Assembly (NCBI GenBank): GCA_023539445.1 | Contig: JAKCEW010000002.1 | Span: forward strand, 62,001 to 126,000 | Direction of reading: 5' to 3' | DNA length: 64,000 bases | Source of the DNA: Candidatus Terraquivivens yellowstonensis | Lineage (GTDB): Archaea > Thermoproteota > Nitrososphaeria_A > Caldarchaeales > Wolframiiraptoraceae | Shown here: piece by piece, positions 23,345-24,679 of the stretch | How the letters are laid out: each line of letters begins with the position of its first letter | Numbering within the stretch: the first letter of the stretch is position 1 | Made by a program: the position numbers and the translations under genes | The notes under the pieces: generated by a model | What the model was told of the DNA's origin: nothing | The model's input: the letters and a program-made list of their open reading frames with translations, nothing else | Database searches by the model: none

Positions 23345-23358
23345 AATTATAATTTAAA
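23345..23358 (-). promoter_or_regulatory. TATA-like element upstream of tRNA-Ser
   Basis: Read on the minus strand this is AATTTAAATTATAATTTTAG, overlapping the cbf5 stop and ending about 17 nt before the tRNA 5' end. Spacing suits a separate tRNA promoter. Confidence 0.45.
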
Positions 23359-24405
23359 TCGAATCATTAAATTTTTTGCTGCCCTTTTTCCAGACGGAAG
23401 GGTAGGTGCCCCTGTTCATAATAACTCTATCGGTATCTACTGCTATCCCCTTAGTGGAGTCTAAGATTTCTTCGGTACTCATCTGTGCCCTACCAAGAGC
23501 AACTAGCTCGCCTTTTAGCGTCATGATTGCTATCTCATCACCGCGTTTTATCCCTTCGTCAAGCTTAGATATGCCGGCTACCGCTAGGTCAGCTCCATGA
23601 CATATTGCATCAACGGCTGAATCCAATACATAGACTTTCGGTAAAAATTTGACAGCAGTCTCTACTGGTTGAACGACCCCCCTCAAAGTACGTTCTTCGC
23701 CATTTTCTTTGTAAAGTTTGACAGCTTCGTACACATCCAATAACGTGACCGAACGTCCCTCATCATAGGGTCCAGCCCTTGTCCTTCTAAGTTCCTGCAT
23801 ATGTGCTCCGCATCCTAAGTACAACCCTACGTCGTAGCAATACTTCCTTATGTAAGTTCCACCAGAGCAAGCTATTCTCAGCAGGACATCCCTACCGCTC
23901 CGCTCGATTATCTCTGCCGAATATATTGTTCTTATCCTAGGCTTTCTCGCGACGGACGACCTTACCGGTGGTATCTGATATATCTGCCCAGTAAAGAGCT
24001 TTATTGCATCAAGGAGTTTTTCGTCCGAAACCTCACCATGTAGCCTCATCAGGCAGATGTACTCTTTCCCAGTTTGCATTATTGCCCTGGCGCATTTTGT
24101 AGAATCTTCTAGAAGTATTGGCAATACACCAGAAACGGCCGGATGTCCCCAGGCTTAAAGCCTCCTAGGGTCCCGCCATGACCAGCCCGCTCGACATCTA
24201 ACAAATCTTTTATTTTCGAAGATACCTCATGACTCGTAGGCCCCCTCGGCTTATCGAGGTTAATGACGCCCAACCTTAAGTACATCCTAAGGGGTCTCTC
24301 ATAGGGATTGTATCCATACTTCGGGTCTGTTTCAGCTTCAAGCCTCACTACTGTTTTTCTTTCATGTTGCCAAGGCGGAACGACCCCCTCAATCATGCTA
24401 TTCAA
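23354..24405 (-). CDS. cbf5: tRNA/rRNA pseudouridine synthase Cbf5, interrupted by an intron
   Basis: Read directly, the gene is two frames: exon 1 (24405-24165) and exon 2 (24144-23354). Removing 20 nt (24164-24145) joins them into 343 residues and creates HGGTLDPAVSGVLPI. The Asp codon (residue 81, the catalytic residue of TruB/Cbf5 enzymes) is split by the intron (G|AT). Other motifs: GVINLDKPRGPTSHEV, RLHGEV, GTYIRKYCYDVGLYLGCGAHMQELRRTR and the C-terminal PUA domain (DSAVDAICHGADLAVAGI, GDEIAIMTLKGELVALG). Catalytic subunit of H/ACA RNPs with Gar1, Nop10 and L7Ae. TTG 24405 or ATG 24396 starts it, overlapping or abutting the L14e stop. Confidence 0.93.
24145..24164 (-). other. 20-nt bulge-helix-bulge intron in cbf5
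   Basis: On the RNA, GGCGGGA-CCCU-AGG-AGGCU-UUA-AGCCU-GGGG-ACA-UCCGGCC folds as follows. The outer helix is seven positions with one G-G mismatch, followed by a 4-bp core CCCU/GGGG and two 3-nt bulges (AGG and ACA). The inner hairpin is AGGCU/AGCCU with a UUA loop. Cutting after the second base of each bulge removes exactly 20 nt and restores the frame. This is the archaeal tRNA-endonuclease substrate, and cbf5 is the classic archaeal mRNA with such an intron. Confidence 0.92.
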
Positions 24406-24679
24406 ACTTAACCTTCGCCTCCTCTTTCATGAAATCCACAAGCCCAGATTCTTGTATGGTTTTCAATATTTCTTCATCCGATGCATTCTCCTTTATGTTC
24501 AGTTTATATGGCGTAAAAGCTAGATGTGAAACGTTCACTCTTCTGCGTCTGACACCGGTCAAACTTTTCGGCCCTGTCACCACGACAAAATTTTTATCAA
24601 CGACGCTGACGATCACACATTTTTGTCCGGCCTCCCTGCCCGCCATCTTAAAGCATATCCTTCCAATCTCAGCCTTCAA
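24398..24679 (-). CDS. rpl14e: 50S ribosomal protein L14e
   Basis: 93 residues. IGRICFKMAGREAGQKCVIVSVVDKNFVVVTGP is the KOW-type eL14 core, and RRRRVNVSHL follows. TTG 24679 is preceded by GGTGAG at good spacing. Directly upstream of cbf5, the conserved archaeal pair, with an 8-nt overlap if cbf5 starts at TTG 24405. Confidence 0.94.
   Translation of the reverse strand: MKAEIGRICFKMAGREAGQKCVIVSVVDKNFVVVTGPKSLTGVRRRRVNVSHLAFTPYKLNIKENASDEEILKTIQESGLVDFMKEEAKVKFE

Follow-up and report, generated by a model that had tools for sequence, protein, structure and literature searches.

The cbf5 gene and its predicted spliced product

In the hot-spring archaeon Candidatus Terraquivivens, a member of Caldarchaeales/Aigarchaeota, the cbf5 gene is interrupted on the minus strand by 20 nt, at 24164..24145 of the window (the whole stretch of 64,000 nucleotides that was analysed). 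Almost certainly, this insert is a pre-mRNA intron of the kind that Watanabe and Yokobori described for archaeal cbf5, and we predict that it is spliced. The evidence that decides for a bulge-helix-bulge (BHB) intron is comparative. On the minus strand, the junction reads GGC GGG ACC CTA G, then GAGGCTTTAAGCCTGGGGAC, then AT CCG GCC GTT, the exon 1 part being preceded by CAT. Without splicing, exon 1 runs on in another frame as a 98-aa ORF, and exon 2 belongs to a second ORF of 256 aa, in which the catalytic Asp is missing. Removal of the 20 nt gives a continuous, full-length Cbf5 in which GHGGTL-D-PAVSGVLPI is restored and which reads GHGGTLDPAVSG across the junction. The codon of the catalytic Asp is split after its first base (CTA G, 20 nt, AT CCG), and the splice site is unique because a shift by one base gives no Asp codon. 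The features of the gene and of its junction RNA are collected in Table 1.

The spliced protein passes the Cbf5 equivalog model NF003280 with 443.3 bits (cut-off 242) and stays below the TruB cut-off (TIGR00431, 114 bits versus 151). It can be aligned with archaeal Cbf5 structures over almost its entire length; with PDB 2hvy_A the alignment covers residues 14-337 and runs through GHGGTLDP. The gene lies directly behind a short minus-strand ORF (24679..24398) which we take, from its sequence, to encode ribosomal protein L14e. A sequence-only reading of the window had proposed that the frame of cbf5 is broken when read directly, that a 20-nt BHB intron lies at 24145-24164 and that its splice sites produce the catalytic Asp as G+AT. 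These claims were borne out: the two ORFs are in different frames, the coordinates are exact and find comparative support in relatives, and the excision yields the Cbf5 described above.

Table 1. Features of the cbf5 gene and its junction RNA (window coordinates)
Feature	Position	Strand	Basis and remarks
cbf5 exon 1	24165..24396	-	start ATG 24396 (or TTG 24405), ends at G of Asp codon; frame and Cbf5 model
Predicted intron GAGGCTTTAAGCCTGGGGAC, 20 nt	24145..24164	-	frame break, BHB, introns of various lengths at this phase-1 position in relatives
cbf5 exon 2	23354..24144	-	AT of Asp codon to stop; frame and Cbf5 model match
Outer helix, 5' arm GGCGGGA (exon 1)	24171..24177	-	pairs with 24137-24143, one G-G mismatch; sequence and energy evaluation
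Core helix, 5' arm CCCU (exon 1)	24167..24170	-	pairs with GGGG 24147-24150; joint change across relatives
5' bulge AGG	24164..24166	-	putative cut AG/G between 24165 and 24164, from the BHB rule
Inner hairpin AGGCU-UUA-AGCCU (intron), 5 bp, 3-nt loop	24151..24163	-	sequence and energy evaluation
Core helix, 3' arm GGGG (intron)	24147..24150	-	pairs with CCCU; joint change across relatives
3' bulge ACA	24144..24146	-	putative cut AC/A between 24145 and 24144, from the BHB rule
Outer helix, 3' arm UCCGGCC (exon 2)	24137..24143	-	sequence and energy evaluation

Structure of the junction RNA and joint change of its bases

The flanks and the insert together can form a full BHB motif with 3-nt bulges and a 4-bp core, and all the helices and bulges named in the sequence-only reading are present, including the one mismatch in the outer helix. 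Evaluated on the isolated stretch, the BHB has an energy of -21.1 kcal/mol and the minimum free energy (MFE) fold -21.5 kcal/mol. The MFE fold retains the 3' bulge but puts a continuous CCCUAGG/CCUGGGG helix where the BHB has its inner hairpin and 5' bulge. The same difference of 0.4 kcal/mol, with the 5' bulge paired, was obtained for five of six congeners; L033, the remaining one, has a best fold that retains the inner helix and lies 1.0 kcal/mol below the BHB. Fold energy is unremarkable by itself (z -1.27) and was dropped as uninformative evidence for the intron. With the exons held fixed, 0.07% of shuffles of the insert and 0.015% of random 20-mers produce a 4-bp core together with 4 bp or more of inner helix.

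Joint changes of exon and intron bases were counted over 97 distinct junction rows and compared with 2000 shuffles, which ignore relatedness. The third base of the Thr codon and intron position -4 form C-G in 82 rows and T-A in 11; the first base of the Leu codon and intron position -5 form C-G in 90 and T-A in 5. Neither count was matched by any of the 2000 shuffles. The core pairing is thus retained when synonymous exon bases change, the intron partners changing along with them. Of the 130 intron-bearing genes, all but one (129) use ACC or ACT for this Thr, compared with 34 of the 75 Thr codons of intronless genes, where ACA or ACG is frequent. A tree-aware version of the test went in the expected direction in 3/5 independent pairs for Thr and in 2-3 of 3 for Leu, with none opposite in either case, these events being too few for significance.

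Occurrence of the intron in Terraquivivens and its order

The sequence-only reading had recommended comparing the position and length of the intron in related genomes. The comparison placed a 20-nt intron at the same Asp site in 6/6 sampled Terraquivivens genomes, with few base differences, mostly in the loop of the inner hairpin and its last pairs. In the three remaining sampled families of Caldarchaeales, cbf5 contains an intron of 13-23 nt. Uninterrupted frames in related strains had been named as an observation that would speak against the intron. They do occur, in 14/14 sampled genomes from other genera of the family, but every sampled congener carries the intron and the tree described below presents these absences as a nested loss.

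Purifying selection on both exons is strong: among congeners dN is 0.03-0.07 and dS 0.8-2.1, and dN/dS is well under 0.1 for exon 1 and under 0.1 for exon 2. This bears on whether the interruption might be a sequencing or assembly error, or a 20-nt insertion in a decaying pseudogene, either of which would look like a frame break, in a genome that is a 35-contig draft. Such an origin is hardly credible and was rejected because the insert recurs across genomes: it stands at the same site, with few base changes, in the six genomes of the genus, and 85 genomes of the phylum carry 13-76 nt at that site. A dN/dS ratio far below 1 likewise argues against decay, as does the result that no second cbf5/TruB copy was found in this draft genome, which has a single gene in two pieces.

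Two intronless Cbf5 proteins deviate from the near-invariant GHGGTL just before the catalytic Asp, one reading GIGGTL (L013, genome G009) and the other GLGGTL (L018/L043, G016).

Occurrence across Thermoproteota

At the identical site of cbf5, an intron was called in 85 of 138 sampled Thermoproteota genomes and in 37 of 49 families, figures that are not prevalence estimates because sampling was uneven. The intron-bearing groups include Bathyarchaeia and most Caldarchaeales; among named Bathyarchaeota records the intron is present in 38 and absent from 2. Lengths range from 13 to 39 nt, plus one of 76 nt, and the G/AY site is common to all intron-bearing relatives. The junction caller was checked on two control genomes, probably Ignisphaera aggregans and Staphylothermus hellenicus, where the 39 and 36 nt called equal the published lengths. 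The intron is absent from all 28 named Archaeoglobi and Methanomicrobia records examined, and every euryarchaeal cbf5 gene encountered (Archaeoglobi, Methanomicrobia and one Altiarchaeales) is uninterrupted.

Stem-loops are also found near frame breaks at recoding sites, so that the structure at this junction could in principle belong to translational bypassing or frameshifting, with the ribosome skipping the 20 nt in place of RNA splicing. This is extremely improbable and was rejected. The Asp codon consists of one base before and two bases after the gap and therefore cannot be made by skipping of whole codons; moreover, the intron lengths of relatives cover all values modulo 3, and stop codons stand within many of these introns. 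The structure is also of the type cut by the splicing endonuclease EndA, and spliced cDNA has been sequenced in crenarchaeal relatives (PMC2738675).

Probable inheritance and loss, possible separate gain

To examine the descent of the intron, 119 Cbf5 proteins were placed in a quickly built maximum-likelihood tree, whose deep branches are weak and in which two very long rows (L238 and L248) are unreliable. The tree groups Caldarchaeales (100), Terraquivivens (100) and its intronless relatives (91). The latter are nested within intron-bearing families, so that absence from the sister genera of Terraquivivens would most simply be explained by loss. Mapped on this tree, presence and absence of the intron require 17 changes, compared with a mean of 38 and a minimum of 30 for shuffled labels. 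The intron of Terraquivivens was thus most likely inherited vertically from an intron of early Thermoproteota that would later have been lost in many lineages, the sister genera included. On balance we favour an intron that dates back to the very early history of Thermoproteota (TACK), long before the split of Desulfurococcales and Sulfolobales, and was then retained in most families, lost many times and, in several lineages, shortened to 13 nt. That it was gained just once, in an ancestor, is inferred and not proven, because the tree has little resolution at depth and does not place all outgroup rows on one side.

A real intron could also have been gained separately in Caldarchaeales, or acquired there by transfer, a history that we regard as possible but distinctly less probable. 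The weak support of the deep tree leaves room for it, the sisters of Terraquivivens are intronless genera, and the self-complementary exon sequence at the Asp codon (GGCGGGACC..., ATCCCGCC) might serve repeatedly as a landing site. However, the phase-1 site is identical everywhere and the ends of the introns are alike (5' AG in 75/130 and AA in 30/130; 3' GGAA, GGAG or AGAA in 95/130), and the number of state changes on the tree is again far from that of shuffled labels. As Caldarchaeales form one group on the Cbf5 tree, no transfer from outside is visible.

Splicing machinery and proposed mechanism

The host genome encodes RtcB and two proteins that each carry both EndA domains. The catalytic His is present in the 189-aa protein, within GIDHAPFIV, and appears by eye to be missing at that place in the 197-aa protein. 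Two such genes point to a hetero-oligomeric EndA, which would presumably assemble as (alpha-beta)2. With introns allowed, ARAGORN predicted introns of 12-44 nt in host tRNAs, some of the anticodon calls being doubtful; a BHB intron of 20 nt would therefore be ordinary for a Terraquivivens cell. The tRNA loci with predicted short introns are L265, L268, L270, L271, L272, L274, L275 and L280-L284.

We propose that the cbf5 pre-mRNA folds into the BHB at the exon junction and that the two-gene EndA of the host would cut each 3-nt bulge between its second and third bases, freeing the 20 nt. The exons would then be joined, most likely by RtcB, and the joined G and AU would make the catalytic Asp codon. 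We infer that cleavage and ligation take place and that both are necessary, in agreement with the claim of the sequence-only reading that active enzyme depends on splicing; that a functional Cbf5 requires splicing had already been stated by Yokobori et al. (PMC2738675).

Relation to known introns

Introns of archaeal cbf5 genes were, as the sequence-only reading recognized, already known: Yokobori et al. 2009 described them in Desulfurococcales and Sulfolobales, where they split the same codon at the same point and measure 16-44 nt, and placed their origin in the common ancestor of these two crenarchaeal orders (PMC2738675). The predicted intron of Terraquivivens shares with them (Watanabe 2002; Yoshinari 2006; Yokobori 2009, PMC2738675) the gene, the position in the Asp codon and the BHB cuts between the second and third bulge bases, as well as a length within the published range and a probable two-subunit EndA in the host. 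Its BHB is canonical, with 5 bp in the inner hairpin and 3 nt in the loop, and its splicing is predicted here; unlike them, the Terraquivivens intron belongs to a host from Caldarchaeales, outside both published orders. Because the published host range reflects the genomes available in 2009, Terraquivivens widens this range without being excluded from membership. Introns of archaeal tRNA and rRNA precursors have the same motif and presumably the same enzymes, but the present one is located in an mRNA, within a catalytic codon. The BHB in the 5' UTR of the HVO_1309 mRNA of Haloferax volcanii (PMC7714728) is also an EndA substrate that lies in an mRNA; it differs in its gene, its untranslated location and its euryarchaeal host.

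The suggestion that 20 nt is near a lower limit did not stand and was rejected: introns of 16 nt are published, those of Acidianus ambivalens and A. infernus measure 20 nt (PMC2738675), and the sampled Caldarchaeales include 13- and 14-nt introns. What appears to be new here is the spread over the phylum and the 13-nt cases, the kind of intron and its 20-nt size being already known. A 2020 paper names Crenarchaeota only for the cbf5 intron (PMC7714728), and a search that covered the open-access literature found no paper on such an intron in Aigarchaeota, Thaumarchaeota or Bathyarchaeota, so that any claim to have seen the wider distribution first is provisional.

Taken alone, the Terraquivivens intron adds one more lineage to a known intron, and the survey matters more. 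Its occurrence at an identical codon position in three quarters of the sampled families suggests a far older protein-gene intron with many losses, whose age becomes testable with species trees. There is also an annotation problem, as gene callers will split or truncate a conserved cbf5 in many Thermoproteota genomes.

Extremes of length and a combined intein

Introns of 13 nt were called at L014, L023, L029, L224, L235 and L243, and of 14 nt at L019, L020, L021, L024, L212, L240 and L248. Both sizes are below the published minimum, and those that were folded resemble a bulge-helix-loop and not a full BHB. If spliced, the 13-nt introns would be shorter than the spliceosomal introns of Stentor, which measure 15-16 nt (PMC9505925). 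At the other end, the cbf5 site of L220 (G083) holds an insert of 76 nt, which exceeds the longest published intron (44 nt) and can still be folded as a BHB. In one cbf5 gene (L279, G041:C11:291700-295000, family f5), the Asp codon is split by a BHB intron of 22 nt, and an intein of about 520 aa, which keeps the reading frame, adjoins the Cys of TYIRKLC and matches Pfam Intein_splicing and LAGLIDADG_3; this gene would require both RNA splicing and protein splicing.
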